Part shown: in pieces, positions 7,877 through 26,694 of the stretch | Layout: each line of letters begins with the position of its first letter | Numbering within the stretch: position 1 is the first letter of the stretch | From: Pseudanabaena sp. | Lineage (GTDB): Bacteria > Cyanobacteriota > Cyanobacteriia > Pseudanabaenales > Pseudanabaenaceae | Direction: 5' to 3' | DNA length: 63,906 nucleotides | Assembly: GCA_003249035.1 (NCBI GenBank) | Contig: QBMK01000021.1 | Span: forward strand, 1 to 63,906 | The notes under the pieces: generated by a model | Seen by the model: the letters and a program-made list of their open reading frames with translations, nothing else | What the model was told of the DNA's origin: nothing | The model's database searches: none | Position numbers and translations under genes: made by a program

Positions 7877-7923
7877 TTATCCAAGGTGTCGGAATCGAAC
7901 CGACATATCAACGATTATGAGTC
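7877..7923. other. Left attachment site (tRNA 3' fragment)
   Basis: 47 bp identical to 26648-26694. It comprises the 3' half of the tRNA-CAT gene (acceptor 3' strand, T-arm, variable loop, part of the anticodon arm) plus three bases beyond the tRNA end. The match stops at 7923, where the element interior begins. The remaining 5' half of a tRNA is absent, as expected for the non-reconstituted end of a tRNA-integrated element. Confidence 0.85.
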
Positions 7924-8081
7924 TATGACACTATTGACTGAAAAGCTTTTTATATATAGGCTTTGCGTTTTTGTTTAATCGGTCATAGTCATTTCATAGT
8001 CAAAATGCCTTGTTGCTACAAAAATTATAACTTCTAAGCGTTAATTACTGAAGTTATAATGAATAAATTAGACTAATTTGG

Positions 8082-8936
8082 ATGGGTAGAATGATTTGGA
8101 AAGGGATGAGAGGTGAGATACCATCTTCAGATATTATGAATCTTTTGACTATCAGAAGCATACCTTACCTTCCTGACTGGACAATAGAAAAATATTCTCG
8201 GATGATACAACTGCAAGAAACTGAAGCTGAAAAGCAATTGTTTCAGATCTTTAGGCAAACATACCAGCAAATCGCCATGTATCTTGAATCGGAGTTTTTT
8301 GGATTAAAACTTTCCGAGGAGGTGATGCAATCTCAAAAACTATATAAGCCTTTTGCAACTTTCTACAGGTTAATTGAGGCTATTTTCAAGCATCCTCAAA
8401 TTTCTGAACTGTATGATGATTTTGGCTCTCACATGTTTAGGGGAGGAAAAAATATTGGTACTCCTATAGGTGTTTGGGGTTGGTGGTGTATTCAGGTATG
8501 TGAAACGGAGATGTACAGTGCTGGGCTGCTTGGAATCACACCTAAACAAATTATGAGCAAAGAAACCTATAGGCATAACATCAGTTGTCTATCTGCTTAT
8601 TCAGAAGATCCTCGTTTTGGCATGATCACAGTGCAACAAGGTAAGTTAGGAAGAGCTTTGATCGATAAATCAGGCAAATTGCCCATCCCTTCAATTGCCA
8701 GAGAATCTCGAACCTACAATTGCCCTTATTTATTTATTACAGACGTTGCTTTAACTATAGCCCTGAAAGATCCTAGTTTTGCTGAGGGCGTTTATCGGGA
8801 CTATCAGAAATCTGAGCTAAGCAAGGCAAACTTTATCCAAAAAAATAAAAATGTTCAGTCTATCTATGCCGAAAATGGACAAATCAAATTCAACGGTAGA
8901 GGAGGATCAAAGAATGTTGCGAAATATTACAATTAG
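8082..8936 (+). CDS. Unknown element-encoded protein
   Basis: 284 residues, first gene inside the element. I do not recognise the family. It has a helical N-terminal half (about residues 40-120), then a Trp/Gly-rich stretch GTPIGVWGWWCIQVCETEMY around 145-165, and a basic C-terminus. There is no signal peptide, no clear transmembrane helix and no nuclease or ATPase motif I can name. Several ATGs are possible (8082, 8091, 8106); the ribosome binding site is weak, so the start is uncertain. It is codirectional with the excisionase-like and replication genes but separated by 73 bases. Confidence 0.65.
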   Translation: MGRMIWKGMRGEIPSSDIMNLLTIRSIPYLPDWTIEKYSRMIQLQETEAEKQLFQIFRQTYQQIAMYLESEFFGLKLSEEVMQSQKLYKPFATFYRLIEAIFKHPQISELYDDFGSHMFRGGKNIGTPIGVWGWWCIQVCETEMYSAGLLGITPKQIMSKETYRHNISCLSAYSEDPRFGMITVQQGKLGRALIDKSGKLPIPSIARESRTYNCPYLFITDVALTIALKDPSFAEGVYRDYQKSELSKANFIQKNKNVQSIYAENGQIKFNGRGGSKNVAKYYN

Positions 8937-8983
8937 TCAATGAATTCTACTAATAAGTTGGGCATAAAGAAAATTTGTAGATT

Positions 8984-9017
8984 GTTTTCATCGTTGTTCA
9001 AAATTATCGATGAAAAC
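8984..9017. promoter_or_regulatory. Inverted repeat spanning the start codon of the excisionase-like gene
   Basis: GTTTTCATCG (8984-8993) and its perfect complement CGATGAAAAC (9008-9017) flank 14 bases. The ATG of the gene at 9010 lies inside the right arm. It could be an operator for autorepression or an RNA hairpin that hides the start codon. Confidence 0.45.
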
Positions 9018-9267
9018 CCAATTTTGTTCAAAAAAGACTCTCTCTGAAGCAACGGGACTATCCAACTCAACTTTTAAAAAATATCGTTTGGTTGGGGCTT
9101 GGGTCGAAGGAATTCACTGGCAAAGGGTGAATTCTCGCTGTGTGCTGTATAACCTGTCCTTGATCTTGGACTGGTTGGCTAATCGGAGTCAGCCTGAGCA
9201 TCATCAAAAAGCAATTGATTTCTATGTCCGATCTCTACCTTCTAACCAAGGTAAGAGGAGGGCATAA
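9010..9267 (+). CDS. Excisionase/AlpA-like winged HTH protein
   Basis: 85 residues. KTLSEATGLSNSTFKKYRLV resembles the recognition region of MerR/AlpA-type excisionase DNA-binding domains. It is followed by EGIHWQRVNSRCVLYNLSLI and LDWLANR, the 'W..G.HW......r.lYn..li.dWl' layout of small cyanobacterial excisionase-like proteins. The likely role is directing excision or repressing transcription. It is followed after 2 bases by the replication gene, so the two are probably cotranscribed. The start codon is inside an inverted repeat. Confidence 0.7.
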   Translation: MKTQFCSKKTLSEATGLSNSTFKKYRLVGAWVEGIHWQRVNSRCVLYNLSLILDWLANRSQPEHHQKAIDFYVRSLPSNQGKRRA

Positions 9268-9269
9268 TA

Positions 9270-11753
9270 ATGCTGACTCCAAAGCATCAAAGAGATCTAG
9301 AAAGTTCGGGCTTGTCTTTAGAGCAAATGAACATAGCAGGACATTTTTCTGCTGATAGAGATACTGCTAAAAAACTTGTTGGTTGTGATGTCTCAGGACT
9401 AATCCTAAATTACTGCGATCTTTCTGGTAAGCCCTATTTAAAAAAAGATGGTCGGAAATTTTATCGGATTAAGCCTGATTGTGGCGATCGCAAAACTGAT
9501 GATAGACCTAAGTATCTGAGTCCAAAGGGAGAAGGTTGCCGCCCCTATTTTTCAAGGCTATATCCTGATTGGGCAAAGGCAACTAAATCAACAAAAATAG
9601 ATCTATGGGAAACTGAGGGAGAAAAGAAGGGGGATTGTGGATGTGCTAATGGGTTAGCAGTAATCGGTTTTGGTGGTGTTGATGGATGGGTAGATAGATG
9701 CGATCGCAATGGTACAGAAGAATTAAAAGAGTCTCGCGTTTTGCCTGAACTCAGAGAGATTAATTGGCAACATCGTAGAGTTAACCAATGCTTTGACTCA
9801 GACATTATCGAGAAAATTCCAGTCCAAATTGCATTAGCTAAAAGAGCGTACTTTTTGAGTAAAGACGGTGCTAGACCTTATCTAGTGCTGTTACCAAACG
9901 AGATTGACGGCTCTAAGAACGGACTTGATGACTTTGTGTTTAGGCATGGCATTGACGCATTAAAACTATTAGCAAAGGACTCTTTCCGAACACCTTATGA
10001 AGCTGAGACAAAAGAAGGATCTGATGAGATAAAGTTTTCTCTTTCTCTCAATGAACCTGATACTCACATCAAAGCAATCATGGCTTATACCGTCCTCAAA
10101 GAAAGGTGGGCTTATAGACCTGCGATCGGTTGGTATGAATGGCAGGGAACACATTGGAAATCATTTACTAAAGAGGAGTTTGAAGCAACCTTAACAGTAT
10201 TTATGGATGCTCAGAACTGGAAAAAACGTAGCTCTGGAGTCATTACGTCTGTAGTTAGAGAATTACAATCGCGCTTGATGGTTCGAGATAATTTATGGAG
10301 TCCATTTGGCAAAATCGCTTTTTCTAATGGTACTTTTGATACGACAACGGGAGAATTTAAAGACTCGCATTGTGCATACGATCGCATTACACAGCTACGC
10401 CCTTATGCGTTTAACCTTACGGCTCAATGTCCTAATTGGCTAAACTTTATTTATGAAGCTATGGAGAGAGATAGCGATCGCGTAAATCTTATCCAAGCTA
10501 TATTTCGCTATGCTGTATTACCAAGGCGGAGAGATAAAAAGGCGGAGATTGAGAAGTCCTTTGATTTCTTTGGGCAAAAGGGAACGGGTAAAGGAACTAC
10601 TCTAGATGTTTTAACTAAGCTTGTTGGCTCTGATAATGTTGGCTCTGCTAGTGTGGAAACTTTCAAAAATGCTGTGGGATTAGGACAATTGCTAGATAAG
10701 GATCTTGCTGTTGATTATGATGCGTCAGGTTTCTTGAGCAATATAGGGGCATATAACAAGGTTGTTAGCAATGAGCCTGTAGAGGTCAAAAAGCTATATC
10801 AAGATACTTGTACAGTTAGGCTTGGTGTATTGGTAGTTAGAGCGTATAACGCTTTTATTAGTGTTCCTGATGGCTCGGAGGGACTAGATAGAAGGCTAAC
10901 GGTTATTCCATTTAATCATCAGCCTGAATCTGTTGATACTAACTTATCTCAAAAGCTTGAAAGTGAACTGTCAGGAATATTTGCTTGGTGTTATTCGATC
11001 TCTCATGAAGAGATGAAACGGCGGATCATGACGGCTGGGGAGATTAGTGCGATCGCTGAAATGAGCATTGAACGCTTTGAAGCAAATAATCCTGAGTTTA
11101 GATTTTTAGTTGAGGATTTCTCAGAAGGGAGAGACTCTATCAAGGCTAATGAATTCTATCAGAGTTATCGAGAATGGAGTATTAGCAACCAACATCACCC
11201 AAAAAGCAACGTTAAATTTGCAAGCATTATCAAAACTTTGGGCTGTAAACGCAGTAATAAAATCGGCGGCTGCTTTTACTACACAATCCCTAGAATGTCT
11301 ACTTTTGATGTTCCTTCACATTTGGGGATAGTTAAGAGACAGTTAGAGGATAGTAAGCGAGACAGTTCAAACCTTGACTCAGTAAGCAATAGGGATAGTT
11401 GTAGACAGTTTGAACCTCAAAATCAAAAAGATATTGAACAGGTTCAAATAAAATCTGAAGTTGAATATGTAGAGAGTATATCCTCTAAACCGTCTACAAC
11501 TGTCCCTAATCGTCTCTCAGTATGGAATGCAACTATCTCTAATCCATCCCCAACCGTCTCAACTGTCCCTAGTAAAGCAACTTTGAAAATAGGCGATCGC
11601 GTTGTATGGATGGACACTAAAATAACACCTGCTCTAAAGTGTGTTGTGTGGATTATAGGAGAGATAAATGGGGACTCTGCAAATATTCGCAGAGTAGATA
11701 ATCTAGAGATCACTCAGATAGTTGAGTTGCAAAAGCTCCAGAAAGCCTTATAG
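9270..11753 (+). CDS. Replication protein: DUF3854 primase-like domain plus SF3 helicase
   Basis: 827 residues. The N-terminal region (1-240) fits DUF3854, a TOPRIM/primase-like domain of plasmid and phage replication proteins (LWETEGEKKGDCG and AVIGFGGVDGW are visible). Residues about 270-620 form a D5/P4-type SF3 helicase. Walker A is FGQKGTGKGTTLDVL near residue 436 and a Walker B-like AVDYDAS is near 482, with GLDRRLTVIPF after it. A polar linker (about 690-765) precedes a C-terminal SH3/KOW-like segment, KIGDRVVWMDTK...IRRVDNLEI. It would initiate or drive replication of the element. Confidence 0.88.
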   Translation: MLTPKHQRDLESSGLSLEQMNIAGHFSADRDTAKKLVGCDVSGLILNYCDLSGKPYLKKDGRKFYRIKPDCGDRKTDDRPKYLSPKGEGCRPYFSRLYPDWAKATKSTKIDLWETEGEKKGDCGCANGLAVIGFGGVDGWVDRCDRNGTEELKESRVLPELREINWQHRRVNQCFDSDIIEKIPVQIALAKRAYFLSKDGARPYLVLLPNEIDGSKNGLDDFVFRHGIDALKLLAKDSFRTPYEAETKEGSDEIKFSLSLNEPDTHIKAIMAYTVLKERWAYRPAIGWYEWQGTHWKSFTKEEFEATLTVFMDAQNWKKRSSGVITSVVRELQSRLMVRDNLWSPFGKIAFSNGTFDTTTGEFKDSHCAYDRITQLRPYAFNLTAQCPNWLNFIYEAMERDSDRVNLIQAIFRYAVLPRRRDKKAEIEKSFDFFGQKGTGKGTTLDVLTKLVGSDNVGSASVETFKNAVGLGQLLDKDLAVDYDASGFLSNIGAYNKVVSNEPVEVKKLYQDTCTVRLGVLVVRAYNAFISVPDGSEGLDRRLTVIPFNHQPESVDTNLSQKLESELSGIFAWCYSISHEEMKRRIMTAGEISAIAEMSIERFEANNPEFRFLVEDFSEGRDSIKANEFYQSYREWSISNQHHPKSNVKFASIIKTLGCKRSNKIGGCFYYTIPRMSTFDVPSHLGIVKRQLEDSKRDSSNLDSVSNRDSCRQFEPQNQKDIEQVQIKSEVEYVESISSKPSTTVPNRLSVWNATISNPSPTVSTVPSKATLKIGDRVVWMDTKITPALKCVVWIIGEINGDSANIRRVDNLEITQIVELQKLQKAL

Positions 11754-11837: not shown

Positions 11838-12266
11838 ATGGATAAAATTTATGATCGCCAAAGTACCGATACGGATAAAAGCTTTGCTGCTTTTGCTATT
11901 TACCGCGATATGGGTAGCGATCGGACTCTCGAAAAAGTACGGGTAGAGATCGGGCATAGATCGGTTAGAAATTTAGAGGCATGGTGCAGCAAACATCTGT
12001 GGGTAGCACGTTGCAGAGCGTTTGATGATGATGAGTGGATCGATATCGATCCTCCAGTCGTTCCTACGAAAAAAGCGTTAAAAGCTGGCGACAAAGTTCG
12101 CTATGTGGGTCAAAAGTTCGCGGCAATATACGGAAGCACAGAGTTAATCGTTAATTCTGTTGGCAGTTACGAGATTGACTGCAAATTACCAGATGGAGCA
12201 TTTACCACTAAGTTTAAAATCCGCGATCGCGATCCTGAGTTAGATCGAGCGTCTGCTTTCTTCTAA
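11838..12266 (+). CDS. Terminase-small-subunit-like HTH protein with C-terminal SH3-like segment
   Basis: 142 residues. The N-terminus (DKSFAAFAIYRDMGSDRTLE, then ...SVRNLEAWCSKHLWVARCRA and FDDDEW) matches the 'AFxxYRDxGxxRSLxxVA...WSxxxxWxxRxxAYD' pattern of HTH domains in phage small-terminase-like proteins. The C-terminus (LKAGDKVRYVGQKF, later KLPDGAFTTKFKIRDRD) resembles the C-terminal segment of the preceding replication protein. A role in binding element DNA is plausible; packaging is not supported, because no large terminase is present. A GAGAGGAG sequence precedes the ATG. Confidence 0.6.
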   Translation: MDKIYDRQSTDTDKSFAAFAIYRDMGSDRTLEKVRVEIGHRSVRNLEAWCSKHLWVARCRAFDDDEWIDIDPPVVPTKKALKAGDKVRYVGQKFAAIYGSTELIVNSVGSYEIDCKLPDGAFTTKFKIRDRDPELDRASAFF

Positions 12267-12323
12267 ACATGGTGGGAAGGGACTAACCCCAAATCAAAAT
12301 CAACATCACCAAAGGTGAAATTT

Positions 12324-12626
12324 ATGCCTATCATCTACAGACATCAACAAATCGATCGCAATCCCGAACCAAAGCCAGAGCAAAAATACTCCAATAAATA
12401 ATGGGTGCAATATGAGGGCAAGCAGTGGGAAGTCACAGGCTTTTAGCTTGACGGCGGTATTCCCACATACTCGCTAAAATGTCCAACACGAGACGGATTA
12501 GGAGAACGTACAACAGCACATCAAAGGGAATTAAGCGCACCAAATGCGATCGCCATTACTGAAAGCGATCGCGCTGCCAACCGTGAGCAGGTGATGAGAG
12601 ATGCGGCGAAGTACAACAGGGATTAA
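12324..12626 (+). pseudogene. Small element gene with two in-frame stops
   Basis: One frame from ATG 12324 to TAA 12624-12626 encodes 100 codons with a plausible sequence (MPIIYRHQQIDRNPEPKPEQ, later PNAIAITESDRAANREQVMR). It is broken by TAA at 12399-12401 and TAG at 12444-12446. Each could arise from a Gln codon by one C-to-T change. No frameshift is needed. Family not recognised; the charged C-terminus looks helical. Confidence 0.5.
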
Positions 12627-12728
12627 GATACTAATAAAGCAAACAGCCAAAGCGTTACGGTGTAATGCTTTTGGCTTTTGAATACCTAAGAATAACCTAG
12701 GAATAATATAGGGTTAATGTAAGGTCTG

Positions 12729-12910
12729 TATAAGGTAGTTGACCTAAGTTAATTGCATTTTGTCCGTTTTGTGTCCGTTTTGTGTCCGCAAAAAATGACA
12801 AATAAAATGGCAGACACCTAAGATTAATAGAAGATTAATAGAAGGTTGATATAAGGTAGTTGACCTAAGTTAATTGCATTTTGTCCAATTTATGTCCATA
12901 AATATGTCCA
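12729..12910. repeat. Iteron-like array, possible replication origin or partition site
   Basis: A 37-bp direct repeat (12729-12765 and 12850-12886) contains AAGGTAGTTGACC and ends TTTTGTCC. Each copy leads into three TGTCC iterons: 12761, 12772 and 12783, then 12882, 12893 and 12905. The 11-12 base spacing is about one helical turn. The surroundings are AT-rich and non-coding (12627-13112). It sits between the replication-gene block and the RHH-like gene at 13113, the usual place for an iteron origin or a partition site. Confidence 0.65.
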
Positions 12911-13112
12911 TAATTTTTGAAGTGTATTGCAGTATATTTTGCAAATATCCCCATGATTTTTCTAGCATATTCTAGGATTTACTCCTCTCAGATTGACTTA
13001 TAAGCCTTACTGTCGTTGTCTTTGGTGTAAATCTACCTTACTTAAAAAGCCTCATGAAGTAGCGACAAATAGCGCTGTAGTCGCAAGGCTTTAAAGTGTT
13101 ACGGTGTATGGG

Positions 13113-14075
13113 TTATACGACTAGCCATACATAGTTTTCGCCATCATAATGAGGCATTAAGCCAATTTCTTTAAGCTTTGCCTTACTTTCATTTTGAGCT
13201 TCGGCGGTTTTGTTGGTGAATGATCGCTTACTCCAATTACGCAAAGTCTGAGCATTGCCTGTATAACCGTGTTTTTGAGCTATCTCCATAGCTTTATTGA
13301 TATCAATTGCAGACGCGGCGGCGGTATCGCTCAAATTCGCATCAGGTAAAGGATTTTCAATCGATGGAGCTGTGATATTCGCGATCGCCTCAATGATTGG
13401 CAGTGCATCAGTCTCTATCCTGCTTTCTGTAACATTAGTGGCTACTTCCTTTGCTTTCTGAAGTAGCGCTTGAGTAGTATTTGCGGGTGGTGTTACGTCA
13501 CTGCGATTAGTTTCAAGTGGTTCTAATCTGGCAAGCAAAGGGGAGATCGCCCCTTCAAAAATCGCCTCAACCTGCTCGGTCGATATGAAAGTAGTGGGTA
13601 ATCCGATAACAATTGCCTCAAGTGCTGCAATCTTGTCATCTTGAGAGCCAATGGTAGATTCTATGCTATCGATTTTGGCAAGCAAAGGAGCGATCTCATT
13701 TTCTTCATTTCCCCTGCGAGGGGAGTTTAGCGCCGAGTCTATACGTTCGTCTATATCTATATTATTTTGAGCCAAAAGAGCTACAAGCCTCTCGTATTGC
13801 TCATCAGCAACCCTACTAATATTCCTGATCGAGAAATCTACCTTAGCCTCTAGCGCCAAGTCTATACGTTCATCTAGATTGCTATCTACATGATATGTAG
13901 ATACATCTATATTAGTATCTACACCATCAACATAATTTTGGACAAACTGCCAAAATAGCGCCGCCCCTGTAGTTTTATTGTCTTCAACCTTAGCCTTAAA
14001 CTTTTCCCACACATTAGCCTTATCAGGCGCAATTCTGAAAGTAGCCAAAGGTAACTGTTTTTTCTTATCAGTCAT
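13113..14075 (-). CDS. Unknown RHH-like/coiled-coil protein, possible plasmid maintenance factor
   Basis: 320 residues. The N-terminus (LPLATFRIAPDKANVWEKFK, then NKTTGAALFWQFVQNYVDG) looks like a ribbon-helix-helix DNA-binding domain. The middle (70-190) is acidic, with heptad-like LxxIxxxI spacing suggestive of a coiled coil. The C-terminus (INKAMEIAQKHGYTG, NAQTLRNWSKRSF, then LMPHYDGENYVWLVV) looks like a second small HTH-like domain. A two-ended DNA-binding protein beside an iteron array could serve in partition or copy control; that is inference. It is divergent from the zinc-ribbon gene at 14307. Confidence 0.7.
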   Translation of the reverse strand: MTDKKKQLPLATFRIAPDKANVWEKFKAKVEDNKTTGAALFWQFVQNYVDGVDTNIDVSTYHVDSNLDERIDLALEAKVDFSIRNISRVADEQYERLVALLAQNNIDIDERIDSALNSPRRGNEENEIAPLLAKIDSIESTIGSQDDKIAALEAIVIGLPTTFISTEQVEAIFEGAISPLLARLEPLETNRSDVTPPANTTQALLQKAKEVATNVTESRIETDALPIIEAIANITAPSIENPLPDANLSDTAAASAIDINKAMEIAQKHGYTGNAQTLRNWSKRSFTNKTAEAQNESKAKLKEIGLMPHYDGENYVWLVV

Positions 14076-14156
14076 AGTCTACACCTGTATACACCTGTAT
14101 ATATTCTACTGATATATATAGATTACGTATACACTCTAATCTATATTTTTGTATTA

Positions 14157-14227
14157 TCTAGATTGCGTGTATATATAATATATATCAATCTATATCAAGT
14201 GTATATGCATCTAGATTGCGTGTATAT
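14157..14227. promoter_or_regulatory. Repeated operator-like motif in a divergent intergenic region
   Basis: TCTAGATTGCGTGTATAT occurs exactly twice (14157-14174 and 14210-14227), 53 bases apart, about five helical turns. A related TAGATTACGTATACA lies at 14119-14133 and ACACCTGTATACACCTGTAT at about 14081-14100. The whole region 14076-14306 is very AT-rich and lies between divergent genes, so these are probably binding sites for the RHH-like protein at 13113-14075. Confidence 0.5.
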
Positions 14228-14306
14228 TATGTATAGACAAACGAAAGGGGCTAACCCGCAAAAGCCGCCCCTTTCCAGAAAACAAAATTTCTAAGGAGAT
14301 TCTACC

Positions 14307-14507: not shown

Positions 14508-14608
14508 AGATAAGGGGCAAAAAAAGCCCCTTTTTAAACCAAGATGAATGCAAGATTAGAAACCTAATCATGCATTCATTCCCAAATGTGCCATTATATG
14601 AGGTTTTT

Positions 14609-15466: not shown

Positions 15467-15645
15467 GGCGGCGTTAAGGAGTATTTAGAGGGATTAGATA
15501 CTGACTTACGGAATTGTCTGATGTGCAATCTGATAGGGGATATCAGCGCTGATGTGTTGTCAGATTATGGATTAATCGAAGTCTGACAAATGTATGACTA
15601 TGTAAAATGAAAAGCTTTCCTCTCAATACTTAGAGAAAGTGATGA

Positions 15646-17698: not shown

Positions 17699-20593
17699 TT
17701 AGACAGTCCCACCCATACCCTCGATAAATGTGTCAATGAATAACTTGGTTTTCTCTGATATGCGATCGATGGTTGCTTTGCGTTCTAAGATTTTTGGTTT
17801 AAAGTTGAGAGCGCTGATAATCTCCTGCTCTCTGGGTAGACGGTTGGCAAAGGCATAGTTATTAATGAGCTTGGATAGTTCTTCAGGCGCAATATTTTCG
17901 GTGGTGCAGAGTTCAGCTAAGGCTTCAGATTTTTTGGTTAGCCAGTAGTCCTCAAAGGCTTGTTCTGCATTTTCATGGGGTTGAAGTTGTTGCAGATTAT
18001 TTTCGATGAATGTTTCGATTAGGGCGCGTTTGCTGCGTAGTTGGACTTCACCTGCCATGAGGTCGAGGATTTCTTTTTGACGTTTTTGGGCGGCGGCGGG
18101 ATCGGTTTTGCTCATACTTCTCAATAGGTTGAGAATGTAGGCAACGTTAATCTCATCACGATGGATTAAGCTCAGTTCAAAGTCAACTTCATCGAGAATC
18201 GATGGTTTTTCGGTGTTGCGTTCTTTCTTTACACTGTCATAGACATCGAGATATTTGCTTTTGTAGTCCTCAAATTTTTGGGCTTCAAGGGTGAGGTCTG
18301 TTTCTTCAAAGTCGGCAAAGGTGGTCAGGACATTTTTGAGGCGGAGTAGCTCTCGAAATTTAGTGACAAATTCTAGTTGGGCGGTTTCATCTGGTAAGGT
18401 ATCTACGCTTTTGATGGTGGGAGTTACGGTTAATAGCGCGATCGCTGCTTCATTAAATTGAGTTACATAGTCCTCATAGGGTTGGACTAGGACTGTTTCT
18501 TTTGCATCTTTATTGGAGAATAGGGCGATCGCGTCATCAGTGGCATTTTTAAGGTTGCGAAAACAAACGATATTGCCCTGTGATTTTTTATCGTTGAGGA
18601 TGCGATTGGTGCGAGAGAAGGCTTGGACTAGCCCGTGAAACTTGAGATTTTTATCGACATAGAGGGTATTGAGTTTGGGGCTGTCAAAGCCTGTTAAGAA
18701 CATATTTACCACTAGCAAAATGTCAATTTCGCCTTGTCTGACGCGCTTAGAAATGTCTTGGGAATAGTTGTAAAAAGCTTGGCTGTCGTTGGCGCTTTGC
18801 TTGGTGTTGAAGAGCTTGTTGTAGTCAGTGATGAATTGATCGAGTTTGTCGCGATTGTTTTGGTTGATTTTTGCTTCGCTAGGAATCTCTAGCGGTTCTT
18901 CATCGATCATGCCGTTGGCAAGTGGGTTTTCTTCATTCGCGGCATAGCTGAAGATTGTGGCGATTTTTAGGGGTGAAGTTGCTTGAGCTTGTTGCTTTTG
19001 AAATAGTTCGTAATATTTGATCAGGGTTTCGATATTGCTGACGCAAAACATAGCGGTGAAGTCTGGCGCTTTAGTTTTTTGAGCGTGATGTTCGAGAATG
19101 TAGTCCACGACTTTTTCTAGTCTGCGTGGACTTTCGAGCATTTCTTTAGTGTCGGTTTCTTCTACAGCAATATCGAGATCGTTAGCACCTTTTTTATTCC
19201 TTTTTTTCTTAACAGTTGAGTTACTGGTTTGATTAGTTTTACCCACATACTCGACGGCAAAGCGCAGCACGTTCTCATCTTTGATCGCGTCCACGATTAC
19301 ATATTTATGCAAGCAATCACCAAATAAGGTTGCTGTGGTTTGTTGATGGTCTTTATTGCCAAAGGCATTGTCTGCGAGGATCGGTGTGCCTGTGAACCCG
19401 AACATTTGGCAGTTGGTAAAAAACTTTTTGATGTTTTGGTGGGTTTCTCCAAACTGGCTACGGTGACATTCATCGAAGATAAACACAAATTTTTTATCTT
19501 GGAGATGTTGAATTTTGTCGAGATAGCGCCCTTTAACGATCGCATTGTTGAGCTTCTGAATCGTGGTGACGATGAGCTTAGTGCTGTCGTCATTCAGTTG
19601 ATTGACGAGGTTATGGGTGTTGGTGGTGCTGTCTACACTGCCTTTAGAAAATTCGTTAAATTCCTTGGCTGTTTGGTAATCGAGGTCTTTGCGATCGACG
19701 ACAAATACAACTTTGTGGACTTGGGGCGATCGCATGATGATCTGGCTTGCCTTGAAGGAGGTGAGGGTTTTGCCTGACCCTGTGGTGTGCCAGATGTAGG
19801 CGTTTTTGGTGCTGGTTTTGACCTGTTCGACTAGTGCCTCGGTTGCGTAGACTTGATAGGGGCGGAGGACTTTGAGGATGTTGCTAGCGGTGATCACGAT
19901 GTAGTGGGTGATCATTTTGGCTAGGTGACAGGTGCGGAGAAAGGTATCGGCAAATTCGCTGAGGTCAGAAATACGATTATTTTCTTTGTCTGTCCAGTAA
20001 AAGGTTTGTTGAAAGGCTTGATATTTGTTGTTTGCAAAGTATTTTGTGTTTACGCCGTTGCTGATAATGAATAGTTGCACATATTGAAATAGTCCTGCGC
20101 CTGCGTCATAGGATTCATGCTGGTAGCGGTTAATTTGATGAAAGGCAACTTTTAGCTCGGAGCCGCGTTTTTTGAGTTCGATCTGTACCAGTGGCAAGCC
20201 ATTAATAAGGATGGTTACGTCATAGCGGTTTTTGCGTTTGCCTTCAATGCTGATCTGGTTCGTTACTTGAAACTCGTTTCTGCACCATTCATCGCAATTT
20301 AGAAAGCTGATATAGATGGTTTCGGCGGGTTTACCGTCTGTGGCTTCACGTTTGAGGGCATATTTGTCGCGGAGTATTTTGGCACGTTCGATGACTGTGC
20401 CTGTGTTGAGGTGGTTGAGAATGAGGTCAAATTCGTTTTTGCTGAGGGTGATGTTGCCGTTATGGATTTCTAGCTGTTGCTTGAGGTTGGCAAGCATGGC
20501 GGCTTGATCTTTGATTTTGACTCTTGCATATTTCAGGCTTTGGAGTTGATCGATTAAGGCGGCTTCTAGTTCGGCTTCGGGTTGGGTGGTCAT
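17699..20593 (-). CDS. hsdR: Type I restriction endonuclease subunit HsdR
   Basis: 964 residues. The N-terminal nuclease domain includes RYDVTILINGLPLVQIELKK (PD-(D/E)xK core, about residues 123-142). The SF2 translocase follows: motif I HTTGSGKTLTSF (about 272), DECHRS (about 378), GFTGTP and QAFSRTNRI (motif VI). HsdR cuts DNA after ATP-driven translocation when complexed with HsdM and HsdS. It appears intact. Cutting would need a working HsdS, which here is interrupted by a stop. It is separated from hsdS by two genes on the opposite strand. Confidence 0.95.
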   Translation of the reverse strand: MTTQPEAELEAALIDQLQSLKYARVKIKDQAAMLANLKQQLEIHNGNITLSKNEFDLILNHLNTGTVIERAKILRDKYALKREATDGKPAETIYISFLNCDEWCRNEFQVTNQISIEGKRKNRYDVTILINGLPLVQIELKKRGSELKVAFHQINRYQHESYDAGAGLFQYVQLFIISNGVNTKYFANNKYQAFQQTFYWTDKENNRISDLSEFADTFLRTCHLAKMITHYIVITASNILKVLRPYQVYATEALVEQVKTSTKNAYIWHTTGSGKTLTSFKASQIIMRSPQVHKVVFVVDRKDLDYQTAKEFNEFSKGSVDSTTNTHNLVNQLNDDSTKLIVTTIQKLNNAIVKGRYLDKIQHLQDKKFVFIFDECHRSQFGETHQNIKKFFTNCQMFGFTGTPILADNAFGNKDHQQTTATLFGDCLHKYVIVDAIKDENVLRFAVEYVGKTNQTSNSTVKKKRNKKGANDLDIAVEETDTKEMLESPRRLEKVVDYILEHHAQKTKAPDFTAMFCVSNIETLIKYYELFQKQQAQATSPLKIATIFSYAANEENPLANGMIDEEPLEIPSEAKINQNNRDKLDQFITDYNKLFNTKQSANDSQAFYNYSQDISKRVRQGEIDILLVVNMFLTGFDSPKLNTLYVDKNLKFHGLVQAFSRTNRILNDKKSQGNIVCFRNLKNATDDAIALFSNKDAKETVLVQPYEDYVTQFNEAAIALLTVTPTIKSVDTLPDETAQLEFVTKFRELLRLKNVLTTFADFEETDLTLEAQKFEDYKSKYLDVYDSVKKERNTEKPSILDEVDFELSLIHRDEINVAYILNLLRSMSKTDPAAAQKRQKEILDLMAGEVQLRSKRALIETFIENNLQQLQPHENAEQAFEDYWLTKKSEALAELCTTENIAPEELSKLINNYAFANRLPREQEIISALNFKPKILERKATIDRISEKTKLFIDTFIEGMGGTV

Positions 20594-20768: not shown

Positions 20769-21359
20769 ATGGTCAGTCCTTTAGCTGTTGCCCGTTATTT
20801 TATTTTTAGGGCGTATGAGGATGGTAGAGAGTCACTCATGACAAACATGAAAGTGCAGAAACTTCTTTACTACACTCAAAGTTTACATCTTGCCCTATTT
20901 GATGAGCCTTTGTTTGATGATGAAATTCAAGCATGGCGCTATGGTCCCGTTTGTCCTCCTGTTTACTATTCTTACAGAGAGTATGAATCAAGGCAGTTAC
21001 CAAAAACGACAAGAAATGAGTTAATTCATTTTCCTGAAGAAACTCAAGATTTGCTAGAGGAAATTTTAAGTTTCTTCGGTGAACATCATGCCTATTACCT
21101 TAGTGAAATGACTCATCTGGAATTTCCTTGGCAAAAGGCGCGTGATGGTTTACAAGCAGACGAGATATCTAAAAAGCCGATCCTCCATTCTGATATGAAG
21201 ATGTTAGGTCAAGAAAAACTAGATGAGATGGAGCGATCGCATCCTGTTTATCAAAAAGTTGTGCCTTTGCTGTTAAAAGACGCATTTTTAGAAAACACTC
21301 CTAAGTCTTATATTAAGCAAGGAGAGGTGCATGACTGGCTCAACGCCCTTCTCGCTTGA
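20769..21359 (+). CDS. Panacea (DUF4065/SocA-like) antitoxin
   Basis: 196 residues. The Panacea domain signature is clear: VARYFIFRAYEDG, MKVQKLLYYTQSLHLAL, PLFDDEIQAWRYGPVCPPVY. Panacea domains act as antitoxins for several unrelated toxins in TA pairs, and related SocA is a proteolytic adaptor. It overlaps the next gene by 29 bases. The pair runs opposite to the hsd genes and is inserted between hsdS and hsdR, which may make loss of the restriction locus harmful to the host. Confidence 0.85.
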   Translation: MVSPLAVARYFIFRAYEDGRESLMTNMKVQKLLYYTQSLHLALFDEPLFDDEIQAWRYGPVCPPVYYSYREYESRQLPKTTRNELIHFPEETQDLLEEILSFFGEHHAYYLSEMTHLEFPWQKARDGLQADEISKKPILHSDMKMLGQEKLDEMERSHPVYQKVVPLLLKDAFLENTPKSYIKQGEVHDWLNALLA

Positions 21360-21723
21360 GAAGTCTGCTAATTTTGAAAGATCGTTTAAGAAACTGGTTA
21401 AGGCTCTCAAACACTTAGATATTGTAGGGATCGTTGTTAGTTGTCTAAAGGACTTGATGGTTAATCCTTATCCCCCTAAGTCGCGTGATGAGCCTTTGCC
21501 AAAAAGGACAAATTTGCCTCAAGGTTGGACGTTTCATAAGTTAGAGTTACCAGTTGCTAAAGGGGCATCAGGGCAGATTAGGCTTATGTATTTGGTTAAT
21601 GAGGATATGAGAGTCATTAAGCCTCTCTGGATTTATAACCACGAACAGTTTAAAAAACGCCCTTCTGATAAGGATATAGACGATGTAATTCAAGAAATAT
21701 TTGACGATTCATCTGATGACTAA
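21331..21723 (+). CDS. RelE/ParE-fold toxin paired with the Panacea antitoxin
   Basis: 130 residues. The sequence NFERSFKKLVKAL, then GASGQIRLMYLVNED and LWIYNHEQFKKRPSDKDI, fits a RelE/HigB-like toxin fold with a basic core ending in an HEQFxKRP block. The start ATG lies within the antitoxin coding region (29-base overlap). Its stop overlaps the convergent hsdS stop by 4 bases or fewer (TAA 21721-21723 against TAG 21722-21720). Toxin identity is inferred from fold pattern and pairing. Confidence 0.65.
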   Translation: MTGSTPFSLEKSANFERSFKKLVKALKHLDIVGIVVSCLKDLMVNPYPPKSRDEPLPKRTNLPQGWTFHKLELPVAKGASGQIRLMYLVNEDMRVIKPLWIYNHEQFKKRPSDKDIDDVIQEIFDDSSDD

Positions 21724-22862
21724 ACAAACATCTGTTGTAATAAGCCTTGTTTGTATTGTTTTACTGTATCGAGATATGCCTGAGCTTCGGTAATTTTTTC
21801 GTCAATAGAAGTTAAGAAATTAGCGATTTTAGTTTGTTCTTTAAAACTTGAAGGAATAACCACCTCAACATTATTAATCGATGTAGTATTTAAACTTGGT
21901 ACACCTGTCGCCTCGTTAAACATATACCAATTAATTTGTGAAACTAATAAATACACAAAAAAGGGAACAAATCCTTGATGAATCTCTGTATAAAATAAAG
22001 TGTCAACAGTCCAGAAAGCTTTTTCAATAAATTGAGGTTTATCTATAGTTCCTTTTCTTCCAATAAGTACGCTTGGTTTGTCATATAAAAACTGGTCAAC
22101 TTAAGTCATTATTCCGCCAGTACCAATAACAGGAATATTTCCAGAATTTAGATGTTTATAGTCTTTTCCGTATTTGATTGTAAAAATTTCTTTTAACTTC
22201 TTCTCTTCCCAATCTGGAAAATCGCTCCCATCATCATCTTTAAAGCGCAACTCTTGGCTAAAAATCTGCTGCATCACACCTTTTTTATAACGCGCTAATA
22301 ATTCACATTTTTGCGTGAGTTGTGCGATTTTTTCATCTACAGAAATGAGAAAGTCAGCAATTTTAGTTTGTTCTAGAAGTGTTGGTATTCCTACTGTGAA
22401 ACTTGAAAGAGCTTCTTTTGTAATTGTTTTAAGCGTTCCACCTGGAGCTTTTTCTTTTTCTATTTCAAATAAAAGTAAAATGCTATAGGCAAAGAACCAT
22501 TTATCAAGAGGTTTAAAAAAATCTCCAAATATCAATAAAGTTCTATCTACATAACAATCATATTGAGTAATTGCAATTCTTCCAATTGATCCCTGAATAG
22601 TGAGAATGATAGACCCCTTTTTAACAAAGACACTAAAAGGCTTTGCTTCCTCGCTAATTTTCTTTTTTGTTGAGGGTTTTAATCGCATATTTGTATCAAC
22701 GTCATAAACTTGAACAAAAGGATCGCCTTGTTCATCGTCATACCACTTATCAAGACCATAGGGCTGTGGAAAACTACCTCTTCGATATTTTGATAGTTTT
22801 TCTAGAGTTATACTTTCCCACTTCCCTGTAAATTCCTTAAACCTCAACTTAGGCACACTCAT
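21720..22862 (-). pseudogene. hsdS: Type I specificity subunit HsdS with one in-frame stop
   Basis: HsdS binds the target sequence through two recognition domains separated by conserved helices. The frame from ATG 22862 (MSVPKLRFKEFTGKWE) reads the first recognition domain, the central repeat LEQTKIADFLISVDEKIAQL, and the start of the second domain up to GNIPVIGTGGIMT, then meets TAA (22103-22101). It continues in the same frame as VDQFLYDKPSVLIGRKGTID to the C-terminal repeat EQTKIANFLTSIDEKI and a TAG at 21722-21720. Only one base change separates it from an intact 380-residue gene. The 253-residue truncated product keeps one full recognition domain. Confidence 0.88.
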
Positions 22863-23300
22863 CTATTCCCCCTCCTCAAACTGCGATACCTGCTGAATAA
22901 TACTCAATAGTTCAGTCGGGCTATAAATAGGCAAACTAGCAGTTTTAAAATCTTTACTATTTCGAGTTACAAAACCATCAACACTCGCATAAACTCCTGA
23001 ATGATATAAAACAGCATCCTCAAAATCAGAAAAATTTGAATTGATAGCTGCTTTTAAGGTCACATCATTAACCTCTGCAATTGCAAACAAATCAAGTAAT
23101 CGATTAATAGCCAGCTTTGCCGAAACCTTGCCTAGTGACTTCGACAACAAATAATCGATTGTAGTTATTGTTGTCGCACAAAGATAACCCTGAATAACTT
23201 GCTGCTCAACCGCATTAAATAAATTAATAGACAAACTAGCGAAAGGCTCACGCTCTAACAAAACATCAAGAACGATATTGGTATCAAATACAATTTTCAA
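22863..23300 (-). CDS. PIN-domain toxin (VapC-like)
   Basis: 145 residues. PIN motifs: MKIVFDTNIVLDVLLEREPF at the N-terminus with the first catalytic Asp, FSDFEDAVLYHSG in the middle and VTRNSKDF near the C-terminus. VapC-type PIN proteins cleave RNA. It overlaps the antitoxin gene by 4 bases (ATGA), and its stop lies directly before the hsdS ATG. The TA pair is therefore embedded in the hsdM-hsdS transcript. Confidence 0.85.
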   Translation of the reverse strand: MKIVFDTNIVLDVLLEREPFASLSINLFNAVEQQVIQGYLCATTITTIDYLLSKSLGKVSAKLAINRLLDLFAIAEVNDVTLKAAINSNFSDFEDAVLYHSGVYASVDGFVTRNSKDFKTASLPIYSPTELLSIIQQVSQFEEGE

Positions 23301-23569
23301 AGATACTTTTCCTCTAAATGTTTTTTATAGTCAGATACATCAACATTAGAACCTTTTAAAATACCAACCAGCGATCGCGTAATTGGTAAAATCTCATTAT
23401 TAGTTTGTTGTAATAGCTGTCTACGTTCAACTAACAAATTATGTGCGGTTCGTTTTCTTTGCTCCTCCAACAGCATTTTTTGAACAGCCTTCTGCACTAA
23501 TAACTGCATATCAGGCATCTCCAAAAGCTGTTTGCCCAGATCATCAGGTAACTCGATCGCAACTTGCAT
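23297..23569 (-). CDS. Antitoxin of the PIN pair
   Basis: 90 residues, MQVAIELPDDLGKQLLEMPD, then a helical region and the tail LVGILKGSNVDVSDYKKHLE that ends EEKYL. This tail, a 'GxLKG...DYKxHLEEKY' form, is typical of antitoxins that partner PIN toxins. It lies 15 bases downstream of hsdM and overlaps the PIN gene by 4 bases. Confidence 0.75.
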   Translation of the reverse strand: MQVAIELPDDLGKQLLEMPDMQLLVQKAVQKMLLEEQRKRTAHNLLVERRQLLQQTNNEILPITRSLVGILKGSNVDVSDYKKHLEEKYL

Positions 23570-23583
23570 AAAATTAACCTCTC

Positions 23584-25170
23584 CTAAAATGGCGGCTCAA
23601 TCCCTAACTCATCACAGAATGACGAGATCTTAGCATCCGTCACCTTGCTTTGCTGGTCGATCGCCCTTAGCTGCAAAGCGATCGCATCAAGATCGATCGA
23701 CTCCTCCGCCTCAAACGTATCCACATAACGGGGAATATTCAGATTAAAATCATTGCCCCGAATCTGCTCAATACTCGCCACAAAGCTAAATTTATCCTCA
23801 TTAGTCCTTGCCAAATAAGCCGCCACAATCTTCTCGATATGCACAGGACGCAACACATTTTGAGTCTTCACCTTATCGAAATGCTGACTCGCATCAATAA
23901 ACAAAATATCGTCAGGACTACGACGACATTTCTTAAACACCAATACACAAGTCGGAATACTCGTACCGTAAAAAATATTCGCAGGTAAACCAATCACCGC
24001 ATCCAGACAGTTCATCTGCTCGATCAAATATTGGCGAATATGCCCCTCAGCCGCACCCCGAAATAACACCCCATGCGGCAACACCACCGCCATCGTGCCA
24101 TCATCAGCCAACTGATAGATCATGTGCTGCACAAAAGCCAGATCCGCCTTACTGCTCGGCGCAAGCTTGCCATAAACACTAAAGCGATCGTCACTCATGA
24201 ATAGCTGACTCGCACTCCACTTTGCCGAAAATGGCGGATTCGCAACGATCGCATCAAAACGTAAATCTCGATGTTGTGGATGCTCTAGCGTGTCCTCTAG
24301 CTTGATATCAAAATTTGCATAACGCACATCATGCAAAATCATATTCATCCGCGCCAAGTTATAGGTCGTGCGGTTCATCTCCTGACCATAAATCTTGTCA
24401 ACCTGCGCCGCCTCACGCTTCACCCGCAACAACAGCGAACCACTGCCACAGGTCGGGTCATACACCGTTTTTAAATTTGGCTTATCACTCGTTACTAACT
24501 TTGCCAACAAAGTCGAAACCGCTTGCGGTGTATAAAACTCTCCCGCCTTCTTACCCGCACCACTGGCAAACTCACCAATCAAATACTCGTAAGCGTCACC
24601 CAAAACATCCGCACTTGTATCATTCAGCCTGAAGTCAATCTGATCCAAATGCACCAAAATCTTTGCTACCAAGTCATTCTTAGCTTTTTCAGTAGCTCCC
24701 AACTTCGATGAAGTCAGATCCAAATCTTCAAACAAATTACTAAAATCGTCAGCGCTATCAGTCCCCAGCGTACTCTGCTCAATGTTTTTCAGGATCTTAG
24801 TCAGATCCGCCAAGATGAAATTATGACCAACTCCCTCGTTATTCGTGTCCAGTTGGTTGCTGCCTTTTAAGGCGATCGCATGAAAAAGCTCAGACGGCTT
24901 CAAAAAATAACCCAACTCCGAAACCGTTGCCTCGCGGACAGCTTCGATAATTGCTACCCCATCAGCATCATCTTCCTTGAGTGCTGCAAATTTAAGTCCA
25001 TCTGACTCTAATTCCCCATCAGCATAGCTTTCAATCTTTTCAGACAGATATTTATAGAAAATAAAACCCAACATATAATCCCGAAATTCATCGGCATTCA
25101 TCTTGCCGCGCAAATCATCGGCTATCTTCCAAAGTTGCTGCTGTAGCTGACGACGTTGCTCTTCTGACAT
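23584..25170 (-). CDS. hsdM: Type I DNA methyltransferase subunit HsdM
   Basis: 528 residues. The N-terminal helical domain starts EQRRQLQQQLWKIADDLRGK. The catalytic domain has the SAM motif YDPTCGSGSLLLRVK (about residue 238) and the adenine-methylase NPPFSAKW (about 312). GAGKKAGEFYTPQAVSTLLA precedes motif I as usual. The protein methylates adenine in the site chosen by HsdS. It is the first gene of the minus-strand operon hsdM, antitoxin, PIN toxin, hsdS. It looks intact. Confidence 0.95.
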   Translation of the reverse strand: MSEEQRRQLQQQLWKIADDLRGKMNADEFRDYMLGFIFYKYLSEKIESYADGELESDGLKFAALKEDDADGVAIIEAVREATVSELGYFLKPSELFHAIALKGSNQLDTNNEGVGHNFILADLTKILKNIEQSTLGTDSADDFSNLFEDLDLTSSKLGATEKAKNDLVAKILVHLDQIDFRLNDTSADVLGDAYEYLIGEFASGAGKKAGEFYTPQAVSTLLAKLVTSDKPNLKTVYDPTCGSGSLLLRVKREAAQVDKIYGQEMNRTTYNLARMNMILHDVRYANFDIKLEDTLEHPQHRDLRFDAIVANPPFSAKWSASQLFMSDDRFSVYGKLAPSSKADLAFVQHMIYQLADDGTMAVVLPHGVLFRGAAEGHIRQYLIEQMNCLDAVIGLPANIFYGTSIPTCVLVFKKCRRSPDDILFIDASQHFDKVKTQNVLRPVHIEKIVAAYLARTNEDKFSFVASIEQIRGNDFNLNIPRYVDTFEAEESIDLDAIALQLRAIDQQSKVTDAKISSFCDELGIEPPF

Positions 25171-25273
25171 AGATCCTACTAACTTTTAGCAAGCATCATG
25201 TTACCACCGTCAAGAATCAAAGTGAGATTTTTGTATCGCCTTATTGTCCTTCACAAAATGGCAATATCACAAT

Positions 25274-25320
25274 CCCAGAATATGATTGACAGTGCTTGCC
25301 TCCGCCAATCACATTCTGGG
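25274..25320. terminator. Inverted repeat between hsdM and the integrase gene
   Basis: CCCAGAATATGATTG (25274-25288) and CAATCACATTCTGGG (25306-25320) pair at 14 of 15 positions around a 17-base loop. It lies just downstream of the integrase gene, which stops at 25341 on the minus strand. It may end integrase transcription before hsdM. Confidence 0.45.
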
Positions 25321-25340
25321 TTCATGCATAGCACAGCAAA

Positions 25341-26501
25341 CTATAGTTCTGGTACTGAAAGACTTCGTAGATGAGCAGCATAGTGACGGTAAATAATTTC
25401 TGGAGAGTTACCAACCCACTTAGCTACATCTTTAACTTCGATATGAGCATCAAGACACAACGTAATGAATGAGTGTCTCGTTTGATAGGGTTTGCGATAC
25501 TCAATCCCACAACTTTCTAAAACTTTGCGCCAAGCCACATTTGCAAAGTTATTAACCCGAATAAATCCGCCTTCCTTAGCAGAAAAAACAAAGTCATTAG
25601 GTTTTGCCCCTTCAGACCTGTGTGCAGTCAAAATTTCTCGCAATTGATTGTTAATTGGAAAATCGCGTTTTTCTTGCGTCTTCAATCCATCTTTGACTGT
25701 AGGCTGATAGCCTTCACCAAAAACAACAGCCTGTCTAAACTTAACTACACTATTATCAAAATCAATATGCTTCCATTGCAGCCCGATCGCCTCACTCGGT
25801 CTACAACCAGTAAAAAAGCAAAACTGGACATAGGCTGTGTAAAAGCGATAGTGAGGATGCTTTGCAAAAGCCTCAATGATTAGATCTCTTTCCTCTCTAT
25901 TAAATGGAGAGATTTCGTTATCTTCACCACGCTGATTTTTAGGCAACTTGATTTCAGATGCCATATCTACAAATGGGTTTTCAGTGATTAGTCCTGATTT
26001 CATCCCCCATTTACAGCAAGCATTGAGTTGCACGATCAATCGTTTAGCAGCATTAGGCGGCTTATTAGCAACAATCCAATCTCTAATCAGGATGGAATCT
26101 TTTAAATTTTGTGATGGCAAAAGCGCGATCGCACGGGTAAATCCTGCGTATTGATTGCCAATAGTACTAGGAGAGGCGATCGGCTTTTTAAACTCCATAT
26201 ACTTACCCCACAATGCCCCAAGATTTAAAGCTTGTTGACTATGATTCATAGTCACAGGTTTTAAATGGGTAGGACGATATTTGTCTAGGGTGTAGTCAAA
26301 TCGCTCCAGAACGATGTCAGTCTGTATTTCTTGAGCTTTTGCCTCAGCAATTTTGAGATTGATCTTAGTATCTGACAGCCCAAGCGTTAAGTATTTCTGC
26401 TTGCCCTCAAATAGCTGTCTTGGTAACCTCAGCCTCAGCCGTCCTTGAAACACCTCAACGCTTACTGTGCCTTTGCTTTGACGATCTTTAGATGCATACA
26501 T
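25341..26501 (-). CDS. int: Tyrosine integrase of the element
   Basis: 386 residues. The N-terminal arm-binding region resembles DUF3596 (RLRLRLPRQLFEGKQKYLTL). A core-binding domain (WGKYMEFKKPIASPSTIGNQ) and a catalytic domain follow, with Arg in TGCRPSEAIGLQW, the YQTRHSFI box (the usual first His is replaced, as in many element integrases), WVGNSPEIIY and the Tyr in YRHYAAH. It lies 146 bases from the tRNA-CAT gene whose 3' half is the attachment site. A fragment of a related integrase gene is at 7590-7673. Confidence 0.92.
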   Translation of the reverse strand: MYASKDRQSKGTVSVEVFQGRLRLRLPRQLFEGKQKYLTLGLSDTKINLKIAEAKAQEIQTDIVLERFDYTLDKYRPTHLKPVTMNHSQQALNLGALWGKYMEFKKPIASPSTIGNQYAGFTRAIALLPSQNLKDSILIRDWIVANKPPNAAKRLIVQLNACCKWGMKSGLITENPFVDMASEIKLPKNQRGEDNEISPFNREERDLIIEAFAKHPHYRFYTAYVQFCFFTGCRPSEAIGLQWKHIDFDNSVVKFRQAVVFGEGYQPTVKDGLKTQEKRDFPINNQLREILTAHRSEGAKPNDFVFSAKEGGFIRVNNFANVAWRKVLESCGIEYRKPYQTRHSFITLCLDAHIEVKDVAKWVGNSPEIIYRHYAAHLRSLSVPEL

Positions 26502-26647
26502 ACATTTGACTATGAACTCGTTTGCTTATGACTATGATAACAGAATTCATAGTCAAATCATAGTCAAAACTAGGCTAAATGTGTCCAAAAGTGTCTAACC
26601 GTGTAAGTGTTTACACGGTTTAAGTTAGTCTTAGTGGCTTGTATTGC

Positions 26648-26694
26648 TTATCCAAGGTGTCGGAATCGAACCGACATATCAACGATTATGAGTC
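26648..26694. other. Right attachment site within tRNA-CAT
   Basis: The 47 bp identical to 7877-7923. It covers the tRNA 3' end through the anticodon loop plus three bases beyond the discriminator base. Insertion here rebuilds a complete tRNA gene, so the host keeps a functional copy. Confidence 0.85.

Follow-up and report, generated by a model that had tools for sequence, protein, structure and literature searches.

A probable plasmid-like element integrated at a tRNA-Met gene of Pseudanabaena and its apparently unnamed cyanobacterial relatives

What kind of mobile element occupies the 18.8 kb between two identical copies of a tRNA gene end in Pseudanabaena? The question is raised by a stretch of 63,906 bases (the window) from the 4.55-Mb genome G000, in which the element extends from position 7877 to 26694. 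It is probably a site-specific integrative and excisable, plasmid-like member of an apparently unnamed cyanobacterial family, with a core of int, orfX, xis and rep at a tRNA gene. The evidence consists of identical attachment site (att) cores, an intact tRNA on one side, integrase arms of conserved geometry on both sides, open int, xis and rep frames with low ratios of nonsynonymous to synonymous substitution (dN/dS), and congeners with an apparently single att copy. In the following, G-numbers denote the genomes compared and L-numbers denote stretches of their contigs.

Borders, arm sites and core genes

The borders and the core genes of the element are the following:

7877-7923: attL, a 47-bp copy of the 3' part of tRNA-Met, 44 nt of which are tRNA
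7983-8002: left arm, two TCATAGTCA sites at 7983 and 7994 (offsets +60 and +71)
8082-8936, plus strand: orfX, 284 amino acids (aa), in a conserved position before xis
9010-9267, plus strand: xis, excisionase-like (DUF1233, E = 5.2e-6; phrog_539 excisionase, 5.2e-10)
9270-11753, plus strand: rep, of the primase-helicase type (DUF3854, 1.6e-17; D5_N, 3.5e-14)
25341-26501, minus strand: int, an arm-binding tyrosine integrase (Phage_integrase, 8.8e-15; N-terminal Arm-DNA-bind_2, 4.6e-9)
26236-26566: right arm, TCATAGTCA at 26507, 26529, 26547 and 26558, with a pair within int at 26236 and 26246
26648-26694: attR core, inside tRNA-Met and 100% identical to attL over 47 bp
26651-26722, minus strand: tRNA-Met(CAT), intact, its 3' part forming the border of the element

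The 47-bp direct repeats that an earlier note on this DNA had derived from a tRNA gene are thus identical copies, one of them inside tRNA-Met(CAT). Both are embedded in a longer repeat (120 nt, 87% identity), whose more divergent portion falls beyond the left border of the element. The same note had placed an integrase at one end and an excisionase-like gene and a DUF3854 replication protein at the other, and this arrangement is borne out by matches to Pfam and PHROGs. The start of int is located ~150 bp from the tRNA, with the gene directed away from it, and xis and rep start 1.1 kb and 1.35 kb from the left att, respectively. The noted absence of structural and conjugation genes was found again. 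Capsid, portal and large terminase were not recognised among the element open reading frames (ORFs) compared with Pfam (16 ORFs) and PHROGs (11 ORFs), nor were relaxase, MobC or mating genes among the 16 given to Pfam. The sole packaging-type match in these ORFs is the helix-turn-helix (HTH) of a 142-aa protein; orf320, described below, has a "tail" match at E = 0.045. No regulator of the Stl/Rpr or AlpA type was detected in the same sets of ORFs. A divergent regulator in the element is possible, for instance orfX.

With both strands counted, the window contains eight copies of the 9-bp motif TCATAGTCA, and all eight are located at the ends of the element, two of them within int. A further 69,620 bases of this genome, the sole other part counted, contain no copy. 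The element of G012 has the same motif in the same eight-site layout, with offsets within 1-2 bp. In G021 and G005, a one-base variant, TGATAGTCA, is found at the left offsets +60/+71, as in the window. The right-arm offsets of the window are -142/-120/-102/-91; TGATAGTCA occupies all four in G005, and in G021 it is exact at -102/-91, retains 8/9 bases at -142 and is degenerate at -120. Across these four elements, the type of motif tracks the integrase N-terminus, whose 75 aa are 94.7% identical between the window and G012, 93.3% between G021 and G005, and 78.7-82.7% between the two groups. Integrase arm sites with conserved offsets and motif co-variation are what is new here, and nothing else points as strongly as this co-variation to a selected system of site-specific recombination. 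Exact TCATAGTCA is also present near int in the contig-edge or broken copies of G018 and G020. Between the window and G021, dN/dS amounts to 0.085 for int, 0.096 for xis and 0.24 for rep.

The xis gene has an identity of 86-92% in four congeners. The homology of orfX to the 267-aa ORF of sister elements is weak, at 20-23% identity (E = 2.5e-4 among the ORFs of 12 loci, 1.9e-6 against two sequences); orfX has no match in Pfam or PHROGs, and its structure model is poor (predicted local distance difference test, pLDDT, 46). In Rep, the residues TEGE, CFDSD and GTGKGT are invariant in an alignment of seven proteins. We take TEGE/DSD to be Toprim-like and GTGKGT to be the Walker A motif of an SF3 helicase.

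Relatives at the same tRNA and in other cyanobacteria

A query across tRNA-Met and its upstream side is matched in 26 of 26 genomes of the genus. Eight of them, the window included, carry a full-length int at this tRNA (G000, G005, G012, G016, G019, G021, G023 and G025), and G001, G004, G007, G008, G018 and G020 have fragments or contig-edge pieces of int there or beside a second att copy. A second att copy, at least partial, is present in at least 10 of the 26 (G000, G001, G003, G004, G005, G012, G016, G019, G020 and G021). The xis gene is found at 85% identity or more in five genomes, with a 34% relative in G004, and Rep at 75% or more in four. G002 (one contig) and G022 (six contigs) have a single att copy and no int match in the ~19.5 kb read on the integration side. 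These two are apparently empty sites, for which the earlier note had proposed to look in related strains.

The tRNA-Met site is also a defence hotspot. In G003 (L113, L092), a type I restriction-modification (RM) system is located beside the tRNA, with an HsdR 96% identical and HsdM pieces 85-92% identical to those of the window, and no int, xis or rep is present in the stretches read. The type I RM system beside the tRNA of G011 is only distantly related to that of the window (23-25%), again with no int or rep in the stretches read. Some 13 kb from the tRNA of G019, a CRISPR-array look-alike adjoining a cas2-like ORF was seen by eye in the ORF list (L103:3277-5974).

The sister elements of G021, G005 and G016 are built as tRNA-Met, int, orfX, xis and rep, all in the same direction. 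In G016, rep is split over two contigs, and the 297-aa ORF in the place of orfX is assigned by position, not by homology. G012 keeps int (95%), a 267-aa orfX and xis (91%) next to a different rep (23% identity). Compared with the sisters, the interior of the window copy is reversed: orfX, xis and rep run inward from the left att, and int has the hsd genes as neighbours. A single inversion spanning the whole interior from int to the left att would account for this.

Related elements in other cyanobacterial genera were found by searching with Rep, which supports the suggestion of a cyanobacterial family. Rep is matched in 55 of 194 related genomes at E ≤ 0.001, in 11 of them at 1e-20 or better, and a profile of seven Reps is passed at 1e-60 by 11 of the 388 genomes of the class. 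In seven of the latter 11, tRNA repeats bracket the element (G000, G021, G005, G016 across two contigs, G207, G384 and G181). One has the tRNA with no second copy found (G241, Leptolyngbya sp. FACHB-321), and G264 (Phormidium tanganyikae), G093 and G158 remain unplaced, the last two being short contigs. Phormidium sp. LEGE 05292 carries int, xis and rep, without orfX, at tRNA-Gly(CCC), with a second att (94% of 90 bp) 11.7 kb away. The FACHB-321 element has the order int-orf-xis-rep at tRNA-Arg(CCT), and its second att was not found in the 57.6 kb read past the tRNA; in P. tanganyikae, the 39 kb read contain orf-xis-rep but neither a tRNA nor a match to int. More distant Reps are located between repeats derived from tRNA-Phe (50 bp in G207, 93 bp in G181) and tRNA-Val (47 bp in G384). 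Among the literature matches listed, titles and abstract openings contain no description of an int-orfX-xis-rep family of tRNA elements. To our knowledge, few hitchhiking elements have been described from filamentous cyanobacteria.

Several of these relatives have further genes of their own. In the FACHB-321 element, rep is followed by an SNF2-type helicase, a large methylase (Eco57I/MmeI matches) and a WCX-domain protein (L034:13455-22373, L216:2564-2812), which are presumably DISARM-like, and a second xis-like gene lies ~38 kb further on. The G021 element (L097:12770-18720) has an SNF2 helicase and a tetratricopeptide-repeat protein right after rep, and so has G005, as judged from similar ORF starts; this is possibly an undescribed defence pair. 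The tRNA-Phe element of G181 (L223+L148+L224) encodes a cI-like repressor (phrog_3, 2e-8), an endolysin (phrog_7, 8.5e-66) along with several large proteins unmatched in PHROGs, and that of G207 (L220+L219) has weak tape-measure (E = 0.0009) and large-terminase (E = 0.0004) matches. Both are possibly unusual small temperate cyanobacterial phages.

Plasmid-like module, terminase genes and cargo

Between rep and the cargo, the DNA from 12.28 to 15.61 kb matches plasmid-like contigs in pieces of 74-91% identity. These contigs are G000:C1 (L193; same strain, 111.6 kb), G012:C235 (L194), G024:C5, G024:C2, G016:C34, G001:C28 (L151) and G001:C15 (L198); not all of them need be plasmids. The module consists of the following parts:

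12279-13114: mostly non-coding, repeat-bearing stretch, 74-88% identical in DNA to L193 and 79-81% in short pieces to L194
13113-14075, minus strand: orf320, which occurs on plasmid-like contigs
14080-14230: short direct repeats, a possible operator or centromere
14570-15466, plus strand: XerC-like tyrosine recombinase (Phage_integrase, 1.2e-31)
15467-15613: plasmid-homologous DNA after xerC, 82% identical to L196 and L151, 86% to L198 and 78% to L193

The plasmid-like nature proposed in the earlier note has more support than was given there, from the DNA homology of 12.3-15.6 kb to these contigs, two of which look circular. L151 and L198 are probably circular because each has identical ends of 52 bp. 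Identical ends were found in one more of the five contigs tested, G015:C484 (L152, 119 bp), which has in common with the element only a distant rep and not the module, and in neither L194 nor L146; the end pieces of G000:C1 that were compared are not identical either. L151 has a rep-like ORF (+), a 183-aa ORF (-) and a serine resolvase (+), the order of the window, where the XerC-like recombinase takes the last place, and L198 has a large ORF (+), a 166-aa ORF (-) and a serine recombinase (+), the last assigned by eye. The XerC-like recombinase is absent from the earlier description; its top two matches (59 and 61%) are located on 29-31-kb cyanobacterial plasmids. Matches to orf320 occur in six of the 26 genus genomes, other contigs of G000 included, and at the DNA level it has 76-83% identity with parts of five plasmid-like contigs and, over 43 bp, 91% with L193. 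A partition role of orf320 is possible.

What had been called iterons are repeats that do exist, all of them short and imperfect: two 82-nt copies with 84% identity, and units of 10-21 bp at 12.68-12.91 and 14.08-14.23 kb. The first group is located ~0.9 kb past rep, within the plasmid-homologous stretch. The repeats at 12720-12913 are common, in pieces (79-81%), to L194 and make a candidate origin, and the stretch 12279-13114 as a whole may be a replication origin.

The satellite also suggested for this locus is supported for two sister elements but not for the window copy. In G021 and G005, the left att is followed, ~100 bp into the element, by a full-length gene for a 180-aa small terminase subunit (TerS). 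The G021 protein matches the Sf6 TerS family (PF20901, 1.6e-8) and phrog_1482 (2.7e-9), and the G005 protein is 97% identical to it, with a dN/dS of 0.15 that rests on only 16 changes. The six best fold matches of the G021 TerS model (pLDDT 70) are all Sf6 TerS chains, over 72-77 columns at E = 0.008-0.04, none below 0.001. TerS homologues occur in nine of 194 genomes. In G168, the homologue directly precedes a protein with terminase large-subunit matches, and in G107 a 221-aa ORF separates it from a protein with this domain. Two of the three large TerS-neighbour proteins tested have the large-terminase domain; the 505-aa neighbour in G028 has no Pfam match. TerS remnants of 60 aa adjoin an att copy in G016 and G001. 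No large terminase was found among the sister-element ORFs scanned against Pfam and PHROGs, which are part of their ORFs. The best match to this TerS is at E = 0.108 in the LEGE 05292 genome and at E = 0.741 in FACHB-321, and the match in P. tanganyikae (3.3e-5) is on another contig than its rep. IMG/VR scanned with TerS contains one relative, L200, at 35% identity.

The window copy has no match to the TerS of G021 and G005, and the nearest gene to it is the following:

11838-12266, plus strand: 142-aa protein, with a TerS-like N-terminal HTH (residues 3-65) and a different C-terminal part

This protein matches phrog_6299 (1.4e-16) and shows 45% identity over 62 aa with TerS from Aphanizomenon phage CL131. 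An ORF of G029 resembles its C-terminal part (43% over 52 aa), and homologues of its N-terminal part in one cyanobacterial genus appear, by eye, to be surrounded by ordinary chromosomal genes. The idea that the window copy has a clean TerS was rejected, as the 142-aa protein has only the HTH in common with phage TerS.

The remainder of the interior is cargo:

15646-17481, minus strand: GmrSD-type (type IV-like) restriction protein (GmrSD_N, 3.1e-32; GmrSD_C, 1.6e-8)
17699-20593, minus strand: HsdR of a type I RM system (Pfam)
20769-21359, plus strand: SocA/Panacea-domain protein, antitoxin-like (PF13274, 5.7e-19)
21331-21723, plus strand: 130-aa probable partner toxin, assigned by position only (Phage_TAC_12 below the cut-off at 0.005; no PHROG)
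21720-22862, minus strand: hsdS, with one in-frame stop after codon 253, at 22101-22103
22863-23300, minus strand: PIN-domain (PIN_3) toxin-like protein (PF13470, 6.2e-22)
23297-23569, minus strand: 90-aa probable antitoxin, assigned by position (DUF6364 below the cut-off)
23584-25170, minus strand: HsdM (N6_Mtase, 1.4e-109)

The cargo listed in the earlier note is largely confirmed by Pfam, with both GmrSD domains, the three Hsd proteins, the SocA/Panacea and PIN_3 proteins and two probable toxin-antitoxin (TA) pairs, except that hsdS is interrupted by a stop.

Nature of the element

In an integrative, plasmid-like element of this kind, Int and Xis would join attL and attR, giving a circle with a single attP, and Rep would copy the excised circle. 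The plasmid-derived module (repeat region, orf320 and XerC-like recombinase) might help to keep and resolve the circle, and the RM and TA genes would protect and addict the host. Transfer to new cells would occur in trans, most likely by phage, as the sister TerS genes suggest. Several results weigh against this reading. No free circle of the element was seen in the assemblies searched, and several congener copies are relics with int fragments only. Rep matches 39 of 72,556 PLSDB plasmids at 21-35% identity and, in part, 212 of 50,697 phages, in neither case over 80% of its length, and two scans of IMG/VR with rep found no relative and one with int no match; with plasmid and phage matches only partial and the IMG/VR scans empty, no free replicon of this Rep clade is known. 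A tblastn search of orf320 against the 72,556 PLSDB records gave no match, so its plasmid link rests on contigs of the same genus. Homology and gene order leave the working of the plasmid module unproven. G016, G019 and G023 carry int, but the stretches read there gave no exact TCATAGTCA in its vicinity; variants were not sought. With its inverted interior and interrupted hsdS, the window copy may be in decay.

Decay is the essence of one rival explanation, a dead, fixed genomic island, in which a tRNA-adjoining defence hotspot retains mobility genes only as relics. The hsdS stop, the relic int and sbcC fragment at the left (see below), and the type I RM systems of G003 and G011, which stand at this tRNA with no int or rep in the stretches read, would fit it. 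A dead island is unlikely, however, given the intact reading frames and low dN/dS of int, xis and rep, the conservation of the two attP arms and the identity of the att cores. An integrative mobilizable element (IME), with an oriT in cis and no relaxase of its own, would be moved by a conjugative plasmid. The module does resemble mobilizable plasmids, and L194 (10.2 kb), with which it has pieces in common, carries a relaxase (PF03432, 3.3e-30) and MobC, but neither gene was recognised in the 16 element ORFs given to Pfam, and we consider this explanation very improbable. A phage satellite, comparable to phage-inducible chromosomal islands (PICIs) or tycheposons, would cover the window copy and its sisters together. 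Excision and replication would be induced by a phage, and TerS would redirect packaging into helper capsids. The terS gene beside attL in G021 and G005, with its low dN/dS and Sf6-like fold matches, the large-terminase neighbours of its homologues, the remnants at att copies and the lack of a large terminase in the sister ORFs scanned argue for it. The G021 element, with int and rep at one end, terS at the opposite end and all in one direction, also recalls the PICI scheme as outlined in the consulted part of PMC6092414. Against it stand the window copy, where the HTH alone is shared and belongs to a protein whose N-terminal homologues in one genus look chromosomal by eye, the empty IMG/VR scans with rep and int, and the poor or displaced TerS matches in LEGE 05292, FACHB-321 and P. 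tanganyikae. A satellite, which is compatible with the integrative, plasmid-like reading, is a real though tentative possibility.

The family as a whole looks satellite-like because two sister elements carry a phage-type TerS beside the far att, and its sequences suggest that it contains both plasmid and satellite flavours. The wording of the earlier note, a plasmid-like integrative element or satellite, describes the case well. The window copy differs from these sisters in having the plasmid module, no TerS and an apparently inverted interior, and it is filed under neither PICI nor IME because no PICI-type regulator and no relaxase were recognised among its ORFs scanned and its packaging by a phage is conjectural. 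Somewhat doubtfully, int-orfX-xis-rep could be an interchangeable chassis, which would give a phage satellite with TerS and an integrative plasmid with a partition and resolution module. Both forms would shuttle restriction systems, and the window element would be a switch between the two, caught in the act.

The element has several features in common with PICIs and the related SaPIs (Staphylococcus aureus pathogenicity islands), as far as these are described in the part of PMC6092414 consulted: a specific att site, int at one end, one or more replication genes, no structural genes recognised and, in two sisters, TerS at the other end. Packaging in PICIs goes by an own TerS, present only in some of them, or by a helper cos site. 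The window copy differs in lacking a recognised Stl/AlpA-type regulator and a clean TerS, in the dominance of RM cargo and in the cyanobacterial DUF3854 of its Rep. Tycheposons of Prochlorococcus, compared by description and not gene by gene, are likewise cyanobacterial, cargo-bearing and tRNA-bordered with a tyrosine recombinase, and tRNA-Met is said to be one of their sites (PMC10872708, PMC11389934, in the portions available). The integrative plasmid pHS87b has an integrase with an adjacent tRNA att site as well, with a 45-bp core; its free form has been demonstrated, whereas the window element is known from sequence alone (PMC4739549, from the excerpt used). Of the integrative-plasmid features, a tRNA-gene att and an integrase are present here, and replication and maintenance genes are recognised by homology only, with Rep outside the known plasmid clades. 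CyRepA shares the N-terminal DUF3854, a domain related to Toprim, and differs in its C-terminal DEXDc, where the window Rep has D5_N; on the account of CyRepA in the passages of PMC10079941 seen, this Rep falls outside that group.

What this family brings together is defence cargo, a defined att/arm system, a distinct Rep and, as a further part, a phage packaging gene or a plasmid module. Should it be active, it would give anti-phage systems a route of spread among cyanobacteria, allow satellite-helper interactions to be studied beyond the marine picocyanobacteria and provide Pseudanabaena with a site-specific integrase that acts on tRNA-Met(CAT).

The left side of attL is not a clean chromosomal flank and contains, outside the element, the following relic:

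7577-7675, minus strand: relic of a second integrase gene

The relic is 88.9% identical over 99 nt to the int of G021 and 86.8% over 91 nt to that of the window. At ~7590, it is joined to a 5' fragment (7153-7595) of a putative gene that we take to be sbcC, a second copy of which is located on G000:C33 (L226; 95.5% over 290 bp). Probably, an older tandem element was deleted left of attL; G181 likewise has a second int just past its second att. Perfect or near-perfect palindromes are found in this flank at 7213-7305, 7692-7752 and 7764-7810. The first, of ~97 bp, splits the sbcC fragment and has at least eight more copies in the genome (91-96% identity), one of them at 59991-60078 of the window, and resembles miniature inverted-repeat transposable elements or repetitive extragenic palindromes.

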